This document shows, in pieces, positions 3,966 through 53,370 of a stretch of 64,000 nucleotides of DNA. The notes beneath the pieces are model-generated. The model ran no database searches, was not told the origin of the DNA, and worked only from the letters and a program-made list of their open reading frames with translations. Source of the DNA: Dyella thiooxydans (GTDB taxonomy: Bacteria > Pseudomonadota > Gammaproteobacteria > Xanthomonadales > Rhodanobacteraceae); contig NZ_CP014841.1 in assembly GCF_001641285.1 (NCBI RefSeq), positions 1,984,001-2,048,000 on the forward strand, given 5' to 3'. Within the stretch, counting starts at the first letter, position 1; each line of letters starts with the position of its first letter. The translations under genes and the position numbers were made by a program.

Positions 3966-6608
3966 TCACCCCTGGGCCGGGGCCAGCCGCTCCAGCAGGG
4001 CCTGCCGCAGGCACTCCTGCAGTTCACCGTCCAGTGGCGCGTCGTGGCGATCGGTGAGCTGGAAGAAATCCTCCACCCGCTCGCCGAAGGTGGCGATGCG
4101 CGCGTCGTGCACGCGCACGCCCACCTCCAGCATCACCTGCGCCACTGCGGCCAGCAGGCCAGGGCGGTCACTGCAAACCAGCGCCATCTGGGTGCGCCCG
4201 CCGGTGGCGGAGAAGGCGATCCGCGGCGCCATCTGGAAGTGCTTCAGGTGCCGGTGCAGTCCGCGCCGCGCCGGCAGCACCGGCTTGGTCTCGGCCAGCG
4301 CGCGCAGCAGCCGCTGGCGCAGCTCGTCGGCACGCTGCGGCGTGGCTGGCATCTGGCTGTCGGCCTCCAGCAGCAGGAAGGTGTCCATCGCCAGCCCGCT
4401 GGGCGAGCTGAGCACGCGCGCCTCCATCACCGAGAAATGCATGCGGTCGAGCATCGCGGTGACGCTGGCGAACAGGCCGTCGCGGTCCGGCGCATAGACG
4501 AACAGTTCCGTGCTGCCGCGCACCGAGAACGGATGCACCTCCACCAGCGGCAGTGCCTTGTCCGCCCGCAGGATCGCCGCGGTCTGCCAGGCCACCTGCT
4601 CGGGCCGGTGGCGGAGGAAGCTGCGCTCGGGGAAATCACGCCACACCGTCTCCACCGCCTCTTCGGCGAAGCCCTCCGAAGCCAGCAGCGCCAGCGCGCT
4701 GGCACGGCATTCGGCGATGCTGGCGCTGGCGTCGCGCGGCAGTTCGGCGTCGCTGCGCAGGGCGTAGCGGGTGGCGGTGTAGAGATCGGCCAGCAAGCGG
4801 TCCTTCCACGCGTTCCACAGCCGCGGGCTGGTGCCGATGATGTCGGCGATGGTGAGCAGGTAGAGCCGGTCCAGCCGCAGGCGGTCGCCGACCGCCTCGG
4901 CGAAACGGTTCACCACCTCCGGGTCGGTGATGTCCTGGCGCTGCGCGGTGGTGCTCATCAGCAGGTGCCAGCGCACCAGCCAGGCCACGGTATCCACATG
5001 CTCGGGAGCCAGCCCCAGCCGGGTGCAGAACACGCGGGCGTCGTCCTCGCCCAGCACCGAGTGGTCGCCGCCGCGACCCTTGGCGATGTCGTGGAACAGG
5101 CCGGCCAGCAGGAGCAGCTCGGGCTTTTCCAGCGAGGCCCAGATCTGGCAGCCGAGCGGAAACTCCTTCACCGCCGCCGGATCGGCGAAGCGCGCCAGGT
5201 TGCGCAGCACGCGCAGCGTGTGCTCGTCCACGGTATAGACGTGGAACAGGTCGTACTGCATGCGCCCGAACACCTTGCCGAACGCCGGCAGGATCGCCGC
5301 CAGCAGCCCGTGCCGGTTCATCCGCCACAGCGCGTCCACCGCCGGTGCGCCACGCTGGAGCAGCTTCAGGAAGGCAGCCAGTGCCGCCGGGTCGTCGCTC
5401 AGCGCACTGCCGTGCCGTGCCGTCGCCTGGTGGATGCGGCGCATCGTCTCGGCGCTGAAGCCGATCAGCTCGGGGTGGTCCAGCCGCGCCAGGAAAATCT
5501 CGACCAGCGCCGCCGGCCGGATCATGAACAGCTCCGGGTCGGCCGCGGCGATGCGCCGGCCGTGCTGCACGAAGCCGCTGCCGATCGGTGTCATCGGGCT
5601 GTCCGGCTCGAGCATCTCCTCGAAGCGCTCGACGATCTGCACACCCAGCCGCTCGACCTGGCTGGCGGCGCGGTAGTAGCCCTGCATGAACTGCTCGACG
5701 CCGAGGTTCTTCTCGTGCTGGTCGACGAAGCCCATGCGCGCGGCCAGCCCGCGCTGGAAGTCGAACAGCAGACGTTCCTCCGGCCGCCCGGCCTCCAGGT
5801 GCAGGGCGAAGCGATAGCGCCGCAACGTGGCCTCGGCCTCGGCCAGGGTGGCGCGCTCGGCCGGGTCGAGCAGGCCCTCGGCGACCATCCCGTCGAAACC
5901 GTCGGCATGCGCGAGGCGCAGGCCGAGCCAGCGCAGCGAGTCGAGCGTGCGCAGGCCGCCGGGTCCGTCCTTGAGGTTGGGTTCGAGGTTGTAGGCGGTG
6001 TCGTCGAAGCGGGCGTGCCGCGCGTCGCGCTCGGCCAGGCGTGCGGCGAGATAGGCGCGCGGCGGCCATAGTGCGGGATCGTCGACGATGCTCCGCAGCA
6101 CGGTGTCCAGCGCCGGGTCGCCGGCCAGTCGGCGCGCGTCCAGCAGGCTGGTGAACACGCTGGCCTCTTCCGCCGCCAGCGCCCTGCACTGGGCCGGCTC
6201 GCGCACCGCATGGCCGACCTTCAGGCCGATGTCCCAGAAGGTCGCAAAGCACTGCTCCAGCGCGCGGCGCAGGGTCGGGTCGTCGCGGGTGGTCAGCACC
6301 AGCAGGTCGACGTCCGACTGCGGGAACAGCAGGCCGCGGCCGAAACCGCCCACCGCGAACAGCGCGGTGTCCGCGACCTCGCCCAGGCAGGCGTTCCACA
6401 CGTGCACCACGATGCGCCCCACCGACTCGCCACGTCGCGCGGCCAGCGCGGTGGCGTCGGCACCGTCGCGGAAGGCGGTGGCCAGCGCCCGATCCATGTC
6501 GCCCAGCAATTGGCGCAACGCCTTGCGCGCCTCGGTCGAGACGCCGGAGCGGGGTACCGCGATCGGCAGGCGGGGCAGCGGCGGCAGCGGGACGGAAGGG
6601 GGAGTCAT
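3966..6608 (-). CDS. glnD: Bifunctional uridylyltransferase/uridylyl-removing enzyme GlnD
   Basis: GlnD senses glutamine and uridylylates or deuridylylates the PII proteins GlnB/GlnK, setting nitrogen assimilation. The 880-residue product has the expected order: a nucleotidyltransferase domain near residues 85-105 with GGFGRGLLFPQSDVDLL, an HD phosphohydrolase domain with GLFHDIAKGRGGDHS in the middle, and two C-terminal ACT domains (FVYAPDRDGLFASVTAMLD and LVCSDRPGLLAAVAQVML). The ATG at 6608 is the most plausible start. The frame stays open upstream through a repeat-rich, hairpin-rich interval that is unlikely to be coding. The map gene lies upstream on the same strand. Confidence 0.96.
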   Translation of the reverse strand: MTPPSVPLPPLPRLPIAVPRSGVSTEARKALRQLLGDMDRALATAFRDGADATALAARRGESVGRIVVHVWNACLGEVADTALFAVGGFGRGLLFPQSDVDLLVLTTRDDPTLRRALEQCFATFWDIGLKVGHAVREPAQCRALAAEEASVFTSLLDARRLAGDPALDTVLRSIVDDPALWPPRAYLAARLAERDARHARFDDTAYNLEPNLKDGPGGLRTLDSLRWLGLRLAHADGFDGMVAEGLLDPAERATLAEAEATLRRYRFALHLEAGRPEERLLFDFQRGLAARMGFVDQHEKNLGVEQFMQGYYRAASQVERLGVQIVERFEEMLEPDSPMTPIGSGFVQHGRRIAAADPELFMIRPAALVEIFLARLDHPELIGFSAETMRRIHQATARHGSALSDDPAALAAFLKLLQRGAPAVDALWRMNRHGLLAAILPAFGKVFGRMQYDLFHVYTVDEHTLRVLRNLARFADPAAVKEFPLGCQIWASLEKPELLLLAGLFHDIAKGRGGDHSVLGEDDARVFCTRLGLAPEHVDTVAWLVRWHLLMSTTAQRQDITDPEVVNRFAEAVGDRLRLDRLYLLTIADIIGTSPRLWNAWKDRLLADLYTATRYALRSDAELPRDASASIAECRASALALLASEGFAEEAVETVWRDFPERSFLRHRPEQVAWQTAAILRADKALPLVEVHPFSVRGSTELFVYAPDRDGLFASVTAMLDRMHFSVMEARVLSSPSGLAMDTFLLLEADSQMPATPQRADELRQRLLRALAETKPVLPARRGLHRHLKHFQMAPRIAFSATGGRTQMALVCSDRPGLLAAVAQVMLEVGVRVHDARIATFGERVEDFFQLTDRHDAPLDGELQECLRQALLERLAPAQG

Positions 6609-7661: not shown

Positions 7662-7861
7662 TCGTGAGTTTTGCGGGGCGCAACAGGCGTTTTCAGCCCA
7701 CTCCCCTGCAATGCGAGCGGGCATTGTAACCATCCAGCGGAACAAGCCCAAACCAACGCCACACACGCATCGGCACCGTCTTCGGGGTGCTGCGTCCGTT
7801 TCCGCCAATCCCAGGAAACGCCGCGGTCGAAGCCGGGGATGCGTGGAGGTCCCAACCCCCA

Positions 7862-47394: not shown

Positions 47395-48690
47395 TCAGTC
47401 CATCGGCGTCTGGCGATACTTGCCCACGTCACGCTCGAGCACCGGCGAAGCGCGGTTGCTCCAGGCGTGGCGGATGTAGCTGACCACCGCCGCCACGTCC
47501 GCGTCGCTCAGCGACTGCGCGAACGGCGGCATCGAGTACGGCCGCGGGTTGCCCGCGGTCACCGGAGGAAAGCCGCCGAGCAGCACCACGCGGATCGCGT
47601 TGATGCCGGTCGGTTCGTCGACCGAGGAGTTGCCGTTGAGCGGCGGGTAGACCCCGGCCACGCCATTGCCGTCCTTGCCGTGGCAGGCGGCACAACGCTG
47701 GCCATAGATTTCCCCGCCCCTGTGCCGCATCGCCGTTGCGTCGATCGCCGGTTCGACGACCCGCGGCTGCGACCGTGGCGGCAGCGACTCGAGATAGCTG
47801 GCGATCGCTGCGAGATCGGCGTCGGTCATGTGCTGGGTGCTGCGCGCGACCACCTCGGCCATCGGGCCGAACGCGCTGCCTTTCGCCGACTGCCCCGTCT
47901 TGAGCAACTGCACGATGTCCTGCCCGCTCCAGCCCTCCAGCCCGCCGTGGGCCTGCGTGCCGAGGTCGGGCGCATACCAGTCCTGTGCGGGAATCTCGCC
48001 GCCGGACAACGGCGGCTGCGCCGGGATGCCGCCCAGCGCGTCGCGCCGGGCGTGACACTCGTTGCAGTGACCCAGGCCCTGCACCAGATAAGCGCCTCGA
48101 TTCCATTCGGCCGACCGGGCCGGATCGGGCTGGTACACACCGGGCTGGAAATACATCGCGCGCCAGGCAGCCAGTCCCTGGCGCACGCTGTAGGGAAATT
48201 TCAGCTCCGGTGTTGCGGCCGGGCGATGCACCGCCGCCAGCGATTTCAGGTAGGCGAAGATCGCCAGCGCATCATCGCGAGTGACCTTGGTGTACGAGGT
48301 GTAGGAGAACGCCGGATAGAGGAACTCGCCGTGGCGGCCCTTGCCCTCGTGCAGGGCACGCCAGAAATCGGCAAACGTCCACCGGCCCAATCCGGTCTCG
48401 TCATCCGGGGTGATGTTCGGCGCCGGGATATTGCCGAATGGGGTCGGCACTTCGTGGCCGCCGGCGAACGGGACGCCATCGCGCGCGGTGTGGCAGGCCG
48501 CGCAATCGCCGACCGTGGCGAGGTAGCGACCGCGTTCGATCAGCGCCGGGTCGGCCAGGTTTTCGCTGGCGGCAAGGCGACCTGCCTCGCGCGTGGCGAC
48601 ATCGTCGGGGTGCGGCCCGAACAGCCACCAGGCGACGCCGCCCACCATCAGCAAGAGGACAATCAGGAAACCGCGCAGCAGCCACTTCAT
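47395..48690 (-). CDS. Membrane-anchored triheme cytochrome c
   Basis: The 431-residue product has an N-terminal hydrophobic segment (residues 6-24, WLLRGFLIVLLLMVGGVAWW) and three CxxCH heme sites: CAACH (63-67), CNECH (209-213) and CAACH (about 335). Layout and length match the cytochrome c subunit of membrane-bound alcohol/aldose dehydrogenases, which passes electrons from a periplasmic dehydrogenase to ubiquinone or an oxidase. No dehydrogenase gene is adjacent. Its ATG overlaps the stop of the diheme cytochrome gene (ATGA), so the two are coexpressed. Confidence 0.9.
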   Translation of the reverse strand: MKWLLRGFLIVLLLMVGGVAWWLFGPHPDDVATREAGRLAASENLADPALIERGRYLATVGDCAACHTARDGVPFAGGHEVPTPFGNIPAPNITPDDETGLGRWTFADFWRALHEGKGRHGEFLYPAFSYTSYTKVTRDDALAIFAYLKSLAAVHRPAATPELKFPYSVRQGLAAWRAMYFQPGVYQPDPARSAEWNRGAYLVQGLGHCNECHARRDALGGIPAQPPLSGGEIPAQDWYAPDLGTQAHGGLEGWSGQDIVQLLKTGQSAKGSAFGPMAEVVARSTQHMTDADLAAIASYLESLPPRSQPRVVEPAIDATAMRHRGGEIYGQRCAACHGKDGNGVAGVYPPLNGNSSVDEPTGINAIRVVLLGGFPPVTAGNPRPYSMPPFAQSLSDADVAAVVSYIRHAWSNRASPVLERDVGKYRQTPMD

Positions 48691-49451
48691 GCGCCGTCTC
48701 CCTTGACCGGCGCCTCCGCCGGCGGGGCATTGCCCAGCACGCCGCACTGCAGTGGTGGCGTCACCGAACCGGGCGGCTGCGCATGCATGTCCGCCGGCAG
48801 CTGCCTTGTGGCCAGGAAAGCAGACACCGCGGTGATGTCCGCCGGAGTAAGCCGGTTGGCGATGGTCGACATGCAGTCCGGTGCGGCAGCGGCGCGGGTG
48901 CCGGTGCGCCAGGAGCCGAGCTGCGAACTCACGTAGTCGTAGGGAAGACCCACCAGGCCGGGCGTGGACGGCTGCACGCCGGTCAGCTGGCTGCCGTGGC
49001 AAGCCTGGCACGGCGGGATCTTGCGCCCGGGGTCGCCATGCTCGGTCAGCGCCTGTCCGCGTGCCAGCTGCGCGGCGGACACCCTCGGCGTGGGTGACGG
49101 CGAGTACGGCACTTCCTGCTGGGCGAAGTAGCTGGCGATCTCGTGCATGTAGGTGTCGGTGAGCGGGCGCACGGTGTATTCCATCGGGCCGTACCTGCGC
49201 AGGCCGAGCTGGAAATAGCGCAGCTGGCGCGCCAGGTACTCCGCCGGCTTGCCCGCCAGACGCGGGAAGAAACCGGTGCCCGGCGAACCCTCGCCGTGTT
49301 CGCCATGACACGCCGTGCACGAGGCGATGCGCTGGGCCAGGGTATCCGGCACGGTATGCGTCGGCGGGTTATCGGCGGCGTGTACGGCCGGCAGCAGCAG
49401 GGCTGCCAGCAGAAGGACGCCGCGGAGCGGGATACGGAAGCATCGGGTCAT
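48687..49451 (-). CDS. Diheme c4-type cytochrome c
   Basis: The 254-residue precursor has a signal peptide (IPLRGVLLLAALLLPAVHA) and two heme sites, CTACH and CQACH, each in a cytochrome c4/c553-like domain with GLVGLPYDYVSSQLGSW-type segments. It should be a soluble or loosely attached periplasmic electron carrier. ATG 49451 is preferred; an ATG at 49475 lies upstream of a TATACT -10 box (49463-49458) that would place the transcript start at 49451, giving a leaderless message. It is translationally coupled to the triheme cytochrome. Confidence 0.88.
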   Translation of the reverse strand: MTRCFRIPLRGVLLLAALLLPAVHAADNPPTHTVPDTLAQRIASCTACHGEHGEGSPGTGFFPRLAGKPAEYLARQLRYFQLGLRRYGPMEYTVRPLTDTYMHEIASYFAQQEVPYSPSPTPRVSAAQLARGQALTEHGDPGRKIPPCQACHGSQLTGVQPSTPGLVGLPYDYVSSQLGSWRTGTRAAAAPDCMSTIANRLTPADITAVSAFLATRQLPADMHAQPPGSVTPPLQCGVLGNAPPAEAPVKGDGA

Positions 49452-49457
49452 CCACGA

Positions 49458-49463
49458 AGTATA
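49458..49463 (-). promoter_or_regulatory. TATACT -10 box before diheme cytochrome gene
   Basis: TATACT reads leftwards and ends 6 bp before the ATG at 49451. No good -35 is seen at 16-18 bp. The layout is the same as at lpxB and implies a leaderless transcript if active. Confidence 0.35.
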
Positions 49464-49687
49464 GGCGCCCGGCATGGTGAAGCCGCCAAACGCTAAGGTC
49501 GTCGCCCGGACGCCGCGACAACCTGCCGCAAGCCCCACGCCGCTCCGGCCTGCGCGATCCCGGAAGCCCCCCGGTTCGAACTGCCCGCGGAAGCGCCGAA
49601 GGCGCCAGCGCCACGCCCGGGAACCGGCCGACTGCGCGTGGCGCCAGACTCCACGCTGGCCTGCCTTCGACCGCTCCGTGAGACCTC

Positions 49688-50572
49688 ATGCGCATCCCCT
49701 TCCCCGGCGCCCTCGCGGCGGCCATCGCGATCGCCCTTCCGCTGCCCGCCACTCCGGCAGCGCCGGATCCCCACCCCACCTGGCGCCAGCCACAGGTGCC
49801 GCAGCGCATCTACGGCAACACCTGGTACGTCGGCAGCCGCGGACTCAGCGCGATCCTGGTGACCTCGCCACGGGGCCACGTGCTGATCGACGGCACGCTG
49901 CCCGAAAGTGCGGCGATGGTCGAAGCAAACATCCGATCGCTCGGCTTCCGCCTGCACGACGTCCGGGTGATCCTCGACTCGCATGCGCACGGGGACCACG
50001 CCGGCGCCGTGGCAGCGATCGCCCGGGACAGCGGGGCCACGGTCCGGGCCCGCGCCGCCCAGGCTCGGGCGCTGCGTGAGGGCGGCAAGGACCCGGAAGA
50101 CCCACAGTACGGCGACGCGCCGCTGTTTCCGCCCATCAGGCACGTGCAGGTGATCGGGGACGAGGCCACGGTACATGTCGGGCCACTGGCGATCCGCGCC
50201 CACCCGACGCCGGGACACACCCCCGGAAGCACCACCTGGAGCTGGACCTCCTGCGAGCGCGGCCGCTGCCTGCACATGGTGTATGCCGACAGCCTCACGC
50301 CCATGGCGGCCGGCAGCTACCGCTTCTCCGCTCCGGACCATCCGGAGCGTCTGACATCCTTCCGTCGCGGCATCGCCGCGTTGTCCACCCTGCCTTGTGA
50401 CATCCTGATGACCCCACATCCGGAAGCCAGCCGCTTCTGGCAACGCATGACGGCGCGCGCGCAGGGGCATGCGGATGCGCTGCGTGATCCGGACGCCTGC
50501 CGCGCCTACGCACGCCTGGGCGGGCAGATGATGGACAAGCGCATCGCCGTCGAGCGGGAGGCCGCTCCCTGA
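49688..50572 (+). CDS. Subclass B3 metallo-beta-lactamase
   Basis: The 294-residue precursor has a signal peptide (about residues 1-25) and all subclass B3 zinc ligands in canonical order. The HxHxDH motif is HAHGDH at 99-104 (His99, His101, Asp103, His104), with His177 in TPGHTPGSTTW and His244 in LPCDILMTPHPE. Cys237 and Cys271 match the conserved B3 disulfide. The start of the mature enzyme (RIYGNTWYVGSRGLSAILV, HVLIDGTLP) is also B3-like. Such enzymes hydrolyse penicillins, cephalosporins and carbapenems in the periplasm. The actual spectrum is unknown, and a non-beta-lactam hydrolase role cannot be excluded. No AmpR-type regulator is adjacent. Confidence 0.92.
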   Translation: MRIPFPGALAAAIAIALPLPATPAAPDPHPTWRQPQVPQRIYGNTWYVGSRGLSAILVTSPRGHVLIDGTLPESAAMVEANIRSLGFRLHDVRVILDSHAHGDHAGAVAAIARDSGATVRARAAQARALREGGKDPEDPQYGDAPLFPPIRHVQVIGDEATVHVGPLAIRAHPTPGHTPGSTTWSWTSCERGRCLHMVYADSLTPMAAGSYRFSAPDHPERLTSFRRGIAALSTLPCDILMTPHPEASRFWQRMTARAQGHADALRDPDACRAYARLGGQMMDKRIAVEREAAP

Positions 50573-50667: not shown

Positions 50668-51495
50668 ATGAGTGCGAAGCAACGATCGCCTGAAGCGCCC
50701 GCCGAGCTGCCGCATGTCGATCGCTGGACCCTGATCGGCCTGGTTCTGCTGCTTTCGCCCTTGCTGACCATGGCCCACGAGCTGCTGGGCCACGCCGTGA
50801 CCTGCGTGGCCTCCGGGCACCGTCCGAGCGAGCTGGGGGCCTACTACGTCGAATGTCCAGGCACCGGGCCGATAGCGCGCCGCCTGGTGGCCATGGCCGG
50901 CACGACGGTCGATATCGTGGTGGCGGCACTGGCCTACCTCGCCTGGCGCACCGTCCGCACGCCGCTGCTGCGACTGGCGCTCTGGATCACCTTCACCGTG
51001 AAGGCGATGGTGGCTGCCGGCTACTGGCTGTTCTCCGGAATATTGGGCCTGGGCGACTGGAGTCCGGTCGGCGATGGCGGACTCGCGCCGCTGCCGCATC
51101 CGTGGTTGTGGCGGGTCGCCCTGACCGCCGTAGGCCTGGCGGCCTACATCGGCACCATCCGCCTCGCCAACCGCAGCATCGACGCGATGCTCGGCGGCGG
51201 CGCGGCAGCGCGTGCCACCCGCGTGCGCACGGCCATGACCGTCTACTGGATAGGCGGTGCGGGCGCGCTGCTGGTCAGCCTGTTCAACCCGCACGGGCTG
51301 GTGATCACGCTGATCTCCGCCGTGGCGTCGACCTTCGGCGGCACGGCGGGGCTGTTCAATGTGGCCTATCGCCCAACACCGGCGACTCCACCCCGCCCCC
51401 TGGCGATCGGCCGCCACCCCGCGCTGCTCATCGCAGGCGCCGTGGTGATGGCGGCGTTTGCCGCGGTGCTCGGCCCCACCGTCTACCTGCGCTGA
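50668..51495 (+). CDS. Polytopic membrane protein with HExxxH motif
   Basis: The 275-residue product has about six or seven membrane segments. The first helix runs into AHELLGHAVTC, so His37, Glu38 and His42 form an HExxxH motif at the membrane face. This resembles, but is one residue longer than, the HExxH of M50 site-2 proteases; no LDG-type third-ligand motif is evident. It may be a metal-binding membrane protein or a diverged protease; the function is unknown. The start at 50668 (MSAKQRSPEAPAEL, GGAAC upstream) is preferred over one 24 bp upstream. It follows the metallo-beta-lactamase by 95 bp on the same strand. Confidence 0.75.
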   Translation: MSAKQRSPEAPAELPHVDRWTLIGLVLLLSPLLTMAHELLGHAVTCVASGHRPSELGAYYVECPGTGPIARRLVAMAGTTVDIVVAALAYLAWRTVRTPLLRLALWITFTVKAMVAAGYWLFSGILGLGDWSPVGDGGLAPLPHPWLWRVALTAVGLAAYIGTIRLANRSIDAMLGGGAAARATRVRTAMTVYWIGGAGALLVSLFNPHGLVITLISAVASTFGGTAGLFNVAYRPTPATPPRPLAIGRHPALLIAGAVVMAAFAAVLGPTVYLR

Positions 51496-51503
51496 CCGAT
51501 GCC

Positions 51504-52871
51504 TCAGCCGCGACTGACGGATTTGCGCACGATCAGCATCGCCAACTCCAGCGACTGCTCGTAGTTCAGCCGGGGATCGACCGTCGACTTGTAGGCCCGC
51601 GAGAGATCCGACTCGGACAGGTCGCGTGCGCCACCCATGCACTCGGTGACGTTCTCGCCGGTCAGCTCGAGATGGACGCCACCCAAGCGCGTGCCGGCGG
51701 CGGCGTGGATGTCGAAAGCCTGATCGAGCTCGCCGCGGATGTTGTCGAAGCGACGCGTCTTGTAGCCGTTGGATGTGCTTTCGGTGTTGCCATGCATCGG
51801 GTCGGCCACCCACAGCACACGACGCCCTTCGCGCTTCACCGCGTCCAGCAGCGGCGGCAGGCGCTCGGCAATCGCCGCGTTGCCCATGCGATGCACCAGC
51901 GTCAGCCGTCCAGGTTCGTCGTCGGGGTTGAGTGCGTCCATCAACGGCAGCAGCTGCTCGGGTGTGACCGACGGCCCCACTTTCACCGCGATCGGATTGC
52001 GGATGCCGCGGAAATACTCCACGTGCGCGCCGTCGAGCGCCGCAGTGCGCATGCCGATCCACGGAAAATGCGTGGACAGGTTGAACCAGCCCGGGTGGCG
52101 CGGCACCTGGCGGGTCAACGCCTGTTCGTAGTGCAGCAGCAACGCCTCGTGCGAGGTGAAGAAATCGACCCGCGAAAAGCTGGCGATCGGGCCGGCGAGC
52201 GTCTCCATGAAACGCAGCGAGTCGCCGATCGAGGCGACCATCTGGCGATACTCGGCAGCCAGCGGCGAGTGCTCGACCCAAGCCAGGTCCCAGTACTCCG
52301 GATGATGCAGGTCGGCAAAACCGCCATCGATCAGCGCCCGCACGAAATTCATCGTGAGCGCCGAATGTGCGTGTGCCTGGATCAGGCGCTGAGGATCGGC
52401 GCGGCGTGCCTCGGCCGTGAAGGCCGGTGCGTTCACCACGTCCCCGCGGAAACTCGGCAGGGTCAGACCGTCGCGTGTCTCGGTGTCGGCCGAGCGCGGC
52501 TTGGCGTACTGTCCAGCGAATCGCCCCACCCGAAGCACCGGCTTCTTGAGCCCGTGCACCATCACCAGACTCATCTGCAGCAGCACCTTGAGCCGGTTGG
52601 AGATGATCGGGCTGGTGCAGTCGGTGAAACTCTCCGCGCAATCGCCGCCCTGCAGCAGGAAGCTGTGGCCATCCTGGGCCTCGGCCAGCGCCTGCTTGAG
52701 CGCAAGCACTTCCCAGGAGGTCACCAGCGGTGGCAGCGAGGCCAGCTGGGCCGTAGCGGCGGCCAGTTCGGCCGGATCGTCGTAGTGGGGCTGCTGCAAC
52801 GCCTCGCGCTGCTGCCAGGAAGCGGGAGACCAGTCCACCGGGGTGGATGGGCTCGTAGGCTGGATCGCCAT
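51504..52871 (-). CDS. Class II 3-deoxy-7-phosphoheptulonate synthase
   Basis: This plant-type (class II) DAHP synthase condenses phosphoenolpyruvate and erythrose 4-phosphate, the first shikimate-pathway step. The 455-residue product has LLQGGDCAESFTDC, the LRVGRFAGQYAKPRS segment, VWVADPMHGNT-type metal region (LWVADPMHGNTEST), GVHLELTGENVTECMGG and the C-terminal DPRLNYEQSLELA. It is unrelated in sequence to E. coli AroF/G/H. The ATG at 52871 is one base after the dsbB stop, with GGAGCG upstream, so expression is probably linked to dsbB. It converges on the HExxxH membrane protein gene. Confidence 0.96.
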   Translation of the reverse strand: MAIQPTSPSTPVDWSPASWQQREALQQPHYDDPAELAAATAQLASLPPLVTSWEVLALKQALAEAQDGHSFLLQGGDCAESFTDCTSPIISNRLKVLLQMSLVMVHGLKKPVLRVGRFAGQYAKPRSADTETRDGLTLPSFRGDVVNAPAFTAEARRADPQRLIQAHAHSALTMNFVRALIDGGFADLHHPEYWDLAWVEHSPLAAEYRQMVASIGDSLRFMETLAGPIASFSRVDFFTSHEALLLHYEQALTRQVPRHPGWFNLSTHFPWIGMRTAALDGAHVEYFRGIRNPIAVKVGPSVTPEQLLPLMDALNPDDEPGRLTLVHRMGNAAIAERLPPLLDAVKREGRRVLWVADPMHGNTESTSNGYKTRRFDNIRGELDQAFDIHAAAGTRLGGVHLELTGENVTECMGGARDLSESDLSRAYKSTVDPRLNYEQSLELAMLIVRKSVSRG

Positions 52872-52872
52872 G

Positions 52873-53370
52873 TCAGACGCTCCGACGCCGCGTGACCAGT
52901 ACCGCCCAGATCCCCAGCGCGATGAACCACAACAGTGTCCAGGCCGGCATCGGCAGGCCGAGGATGGGCTCGACCTTGGCACACTCGCCCGACCCGGTGA
53001 ACACGAGCTTCAGGACCTTGGCGAAAGGAAAGGCGCTCATCAGGTAACCGAGGTCACCGCCACAGGAGGGCACTTCGTCGGCGGGCAGCGACTGGATCCA
53101 CAAATGGCGTCCAGCCACCGCAATGCCCCAGGCCGCGCCAAGCAGAACGCCAGCCGTGTAGATCCAGCGTCCACCTCCCTTGGGCGCATGGATCGCACCG
53201 GCCAGAAAGAACAGGCCCATCACCATGAAACCGATGCGCTGGAAGATGCACAGCGGGCACGGAATCATCGCCCAGACGTACTGCGCATAGAGCGCAAAAC
53301 CGAGCAGCCCCGCACAGATAACGAAGCCGGCGAGGAAGGTGGTGCGGTAGGACCAATGGAGAGGATTCAT
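52873..53370 (-). CDS. dsbB: Disulfide bond formation protein B
   Basis: DsbB is the four-helix inner membrane protein that reoxidises DsbA with ubiquinone. The 165-residue product has the two periplasmic cysteine pairs in family positions: CPLC (Cys38, Cys41) and Cys103 with Cys130 (GSGECAK), nearly the E. coli numbering. The ATG at 53370 gives the standard N-terminus. It lies between the terminator of the ribosomal operon and the DAHP synthase gene, which it probably cotranscribes. Confidence 0.96.
   Translation of the reverse strand: MNPLHWSYRTTFLAGFVICAGLLGFALYAQYVWAMIPCPLCIFQRIGFMVMGLFFLAGAIHAPKGGGRWIYTAGVLLGAAWGIAVAGRHLWIQSLPADEVPSCGGDLGYLMSAFPFAKVLKLVFTGSGECAKVEPILGLPMPAWTLLWFIALGIWAVLVTRRRSV

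Follow-up and report, generated by a model that had tools for sequence, protein, structure and literature searches.

A chromosomally intrinsic and very probably functional subclass B3 metallo-β-lactamase in Dyella thiooxydans

Both the motif that defines subclass B3 of the metallo-β-lactamases (MBLs) and the mechanism, in which a hydroxide bridging two zinc ions attacks the carbonyl group of the β-lactam, have been described (PMC10318434). For four enzymes of this subclass, MIM-1, SAM-1, AIM-1 and SMB-1, a disulfide has been reported that matches a cysteine pair discussed below, and MIM-1 and SAM-1 are also known to have a lactonase side activity (PMC7392888). In the literature collection searched, nothing relevant turned up on such enzymes from Dyella, Rhodanobacter or Rhodanobacteraceae in general. 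Here we describe a B3 gene at positions 49688–50572 (+ strand) of a 64,000-nucleotide stretch of the Dyella thiooxydans genome (contig NZ_CP014841.1, positions 1,984,001 to 2,048,000). This whole stretch is called the window, and coordinates refer to it unless stated otherwise. We are highly confident that the gene encodes a functional, chromosomally intrinsic subclass B3 metallo-β-lactamase with a canonical HHH/DHH di-zinc site.

An intact open reading frame (ORF) with an ATG start codon specifies a protein of 294 amino acids. No earlier start is available, because an in-frame stop codon sits shortly 5' of the ATG (tga gac ctc ATG). The product scores 327.2 bits (E = 6e-98) against NF033105, the NCBIfam equivalog model for B3 enzymes, whose curated cut-off is 240 bits; in Pfam only the general MBL family was matched. 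The top sequence matches among solved structures were Rm3 (E = 3.7e-85), SMB-1, MEM-A1 and AIM-1, at 44–49% identity across almost the entire mature sequence. The E-values of the NF033105 and Rm3 matches exclude a chance match. Identity amounts to 27% for BJP-1, 29% for FEZ-1 and 37–38% for two bla-L1 genes from the same bacterial order. None of the listed models for named B3 subfamilies (THIN, SMB, PJM, AIM, MIM, SAM, L1, CAU and others) reaches its own cut-off; THIN scores 278 bits against a cut-off of 700, SMB 276 against 400 and AIM 252 against 675.

The active site is built up from six residues that align with the zinc ligands of Rm3, SMB-1, AIM-1 and L1 and form the HHH/DHH set. Four of them belong to an HAHGDH motif (49982–49999, + strand): His99 and His101 as Zn1 ligands (116 and 118 in class B β-lactamase (BBL) numbering), and Asp103 and His104 as Zn2 ligands (BBL 120 and 121). 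The third Zn1 ligand, His177 (BBL 196; 50216–50218, + strand), lies within PGHTPG, and the third Zn2 ligand, His244 (BBL 263; 50417–50419, + strand), within TPHPE. Both are invariant in 103 aligned proteins, and all six positions are kept in nearly all of these relatives. Ser202 is also invariant in the alignment, and Gln140, Ser202 and Thr204 are the same as in AIM-1 and SMB-1. The protein has only four cysteines. Cys237 (50396–50398, + strand) and Cys271 (50498–50500, + strand) are, according to the alignment, the expected partners of the disulfide that most B3 enzymes have. Cys189 and Cys194 (50252–50269, + strand) align with the pair found in AIM-1, SMB-1, Rm3 and SIE-1 and would probably form a second bond.

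We built a quick maximum-likelihood tree from 103 proteins, with the BJP-1/FEZ-1 rows as its root and no non-B3 outgroup. In it, the window protein stands next to its D. lutea and D. ginsengisoli counterparts, within a five-row clade (support 100). This clade is nested in a 21-row clade (support 98) that consists almost entirely of Rhodanobacteraceae. The window protein falls among SMB-1, Rm3, MEM-A1, AIM-1 and SIE-1, with the L1 and BJP-1/FEZ-1 groups branching separately, outside. Many of the deeper forks are open, which leaves it undecided how the Rm3, SMB-1 and AIM-1 lineages branch relative to one another. Since the tree has no non-B3 outgroup, the boundary to subclasses B1 and B2 rests on model score and fold. 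An AlphaFold model, built from an alignment of 31 natural sequences from genome loci (three rows from plasmid records were left out), predicts the fold with high confidence (mean pLDDT, the predicted local distance difference test, of 90). Superposition of this model gave Z-scores of 40.1 for MEM-A1, 40.1 for Rm3, 39.9 for SMB-1 and 39.5 for AIM-1, at root-mean-square deviations of 1.4–1.7 Å, as compared to a Z-score of 19.7 for B1 enzymes. A Foldseek search yielded the same order of families as the Z ranking, with Rm3 as the best match.

Curated hidden Markov model, zinc ligands, alignment, tree and predicted fold thus all agree with the subclass B3 assignment of the original prediction, which had been made from the DNA letters. 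Its gene bounds are exact, the six ligands and the Cys237/Cys271 pair it had named are present and aligned, and the alignment and tree it had proposed as a check place the protein among named B3 enzymes. The second pair, Cys189/Cys194, was missing from it.

Based on family membership, we propose the following mode of action. The mature protein would be exported to the periplasm, as its family and the look of its N-terminus suggest: a hydrophobic stretch of about residues 1–25 (49688–49762, + strand) in the translation is a probable Sec signal peptide, residues 1–20 mostly have pLDDT values below 50 in the predicted model, and homology to mature B3 enzymes starts at residue 30–32. Zn1 would be held by His99, His101 and His177, and Zn2 by Asp103, His104 and His244. 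A hydroxide bridging the two ions would then attack the β-lactam carbonyl, leading to ring opening of penicillins, cephalosporins and carbapenems. Judged by its family, the enzyme very probably inactivates antibiotics of the penicillin and carbapenem types.

Several observations weigh against a fully functional enzyme. The N-terminus bears a single positive charge. A scan for promoters and terminators near the gene found none, and in particular no sigma-70-type consensus promoter; such consensus scans are weak at high GC content. With only four cysteines, the protein cannot form the N-terminal disulfide of AIM-1, SMB-1, MIM-1 and SAM-1. The absence of this bond in L1, BJP-1 and Rm3 has been linked with lower activity, as has, in these three enzymes, the extension of the N-terminus into the active site (PMC7392888). 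Carried over by analogy, this association may apply to the window protein as well.

The B3 fold could also serve mainly another substrate, for example acyl-homoserine lactone, with β-lactam hydrolysis as a side activity (compare MIM-1 and SAM-1). The abundance of B3 genes in environmental relatives speaks for such a role. AIM-1, however, is similarly distant from the window protein and shows no lactonase activity (PMC7392888), the nearest solved relatives are Rm3, MEM-A1 and SMB-1, and none of the neighbouring genes was recognised as belonging to quorum sensing. We therefore consider this explanation unlikely. A broader form of it, in which the B3 enzymes of Rhodanobacteraceae mainly have a native non-resistance role such as the turnover of lactone signals and hydrolyze β-lactams as a by-product, seems improbable to a similar degree.

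A B3-like protein of the MBL fold that is not a β-lactamase, i.e. a member of the HARLDQ group or a glyoxalase-type hydrolase, shares the fold: structures of HARLDQ proteins superimpose with Z-scores of about 35–37, and the HARLDQ_not_B3 model gives 178 bits. This score is far below the cut-off of that model (350 bits), whereas the cut-off of the B3 model is clearly exceeded; the site reads HAHGDH plus BBL His263 and not HRH/DQK as in HARLDQ (B3-RQK) proteins (PMC10318434), and the window protein shares about 35% identity with HARLDQ structures, versus 48–49% with Rm3. On the ligand set and the model scores together we reject a HARLDQ-type or other MBL-fold protein, for which we see hardly any chance.

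The B3 gene was found in all four genomes examined of the host genus and in 27 of 35 further genomes sampled from the family. In the host genome a single match lies above the B3 cut-off, and the other matches listed reach at most 41 bits. The gene order around the B3 gene is common to D. lutea, D. ginsengisoli and the metagenome-assembled genome (MAG) 15-68-25, and largely to D. silvatica, where the B3 protein shares just 53% identity with that of the window. Counting the window, a 3-deoxy-D-arabino-heptulosonate 7-phosphate (DAHP) synthase gene adjoins the B3 gene in eight genomes, three of them beyond this syntenic set. For most of the remaining family genomes, the region inspected around the B3 gene holds other neighbours, and the evidence of vertical descent at this site therefore covers just a part of the family. 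The ratio of nonsynonymous to synonymous substitution rates (dN/dS) is 0.20–0.31 among relatives, about 0.25, and indicates purifying selection on the gene; values for more distant pairs are rough, with synonymous sites near saturation. Presence across genus and family, the kept neighbourhood in the nearest relatives, dN/dS and base composition all support a chromosomally intrinsic gene.

B3 genes can move, as LMB-1 on plasmids of Enterobacter and Citrobacter illustrates, but a recently acquired, mobile resistance gene is rejected here on the basis of this synteny, of a GC content (71.5%, and 86% at third positions) close to that of the neighbouring genes and of the distance to plasmid-borne relatives, which are at most 42% identical; we give such an origin next to no weight.

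The B3 gene lies between cytochrome c genes (47395–49478, − strand), which are upstream, divergently transcribed and conserved as neighbours, and a downstream class II DAHP synthase gene (51504–52982, − strand), the true start of which probably lies within this span. The locus is near fabV, a DsbB-like gene and rplQ-rpoA-rpsD. Just downstream of the B3 gene, an ORF at 50668–51495 (+ strand) encodes a membrane-protein-like product with an HELLGH motif. It has no match in Pfam, NCBIfam or PADLOC; D. lutea and D. ginsengisoli also have it, MAG 15-68-25 does not. A link to anti-phage defence was rejected, as neither this ORF nor the B3 enzyme has a PADLOC match. Apart from this one unclassified ORF, the neighbours identified within 44–56 kb all have housekeeping functions or encode cytochromes c, and neither an AmpR-type regulator nor a mobile element was found in that interval. 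What had originally been said about the surroundings, namely no flanking mobile element or AmpR-type regulator and a base composition like that of the neighbours, therefore holds, and so does the view of an intrinsic chromosomal gene.

A repeat search around the B3 gene returned only weak pairs, as expected for GC-rich coding DNA. An Rfam scan of the window revealed no regulatory RNA near the gene; its only match, to the t44 RNA family (RF00127), is located at 7742–7856 (+ strand). In the D. lutea orthologue a TTG codon takes the place of the ATG start present in the window gene and in D. ginsengisoli. A B3 relative in a Woeseiaceae MAG (match 5001–5771) has HAHYHN for HxHxDH, with other residues in place of Asp and His as Zn2 ligands; this is either a true variant or an assembly error.

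The window protein adds one more, as yet unnamed, case to a well-known class of enzymes, and such proteins are usual in its bacterial family. Well supported and passed on together with its chromosomal surroundings, it enlarges the environmental reservoir of enzymes that probably degrade carbapenems, and the survey shows B3 genes to be common in Rhodanobacteraceae. The understanding of the B3 class is unchanged by this example.

The closest counterparts in named genomes are the B3 proteins of D. lutea (93% identity) and D. ginsengisoli LA-4 (91%), which differ by few substitutions and share the neighbourhood. Among described enzymes, Rm3 from a functional metagenomic study (PDB-entry 5iqk) has 48.7% identity over 261 columns, the six ligands and both cysteine pairs. 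Half of its residues are not the same, including Asn for Thr at residue 204, Tyr for Trp at 46 and Ile for Gly at 102. SMB-1 and AIM-1 (PDB-entries 3vpe and 4p62) are 46–47% identical and share the HHH/DHH site, BBL Gln157, Ser202, Thr204 and the Cys189/Cys194 pair, but are both reported to have an N-terminal disulfide, which the window protein lacks. L1 of Stenotrophomonas, encoded by the chromosomal bla-L1 gene in the same bacterial order, is alike in B3 fold and site, yet forms a separate supported branch at 37–38% identity and is without the Cys189/Cys194 pair. The D. thiooxydans genome also carries two genes for class A serine β-lactamases, at about 3544421–3545071 and 935428–936183 in genome coordinates, with scores of 297.5 and 230 bits against the curated class A model (cut-off 200). 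This combination of B3 and class A enzymes in one genome is reminiscent of L1 and L2 in Stenotrophomonas.
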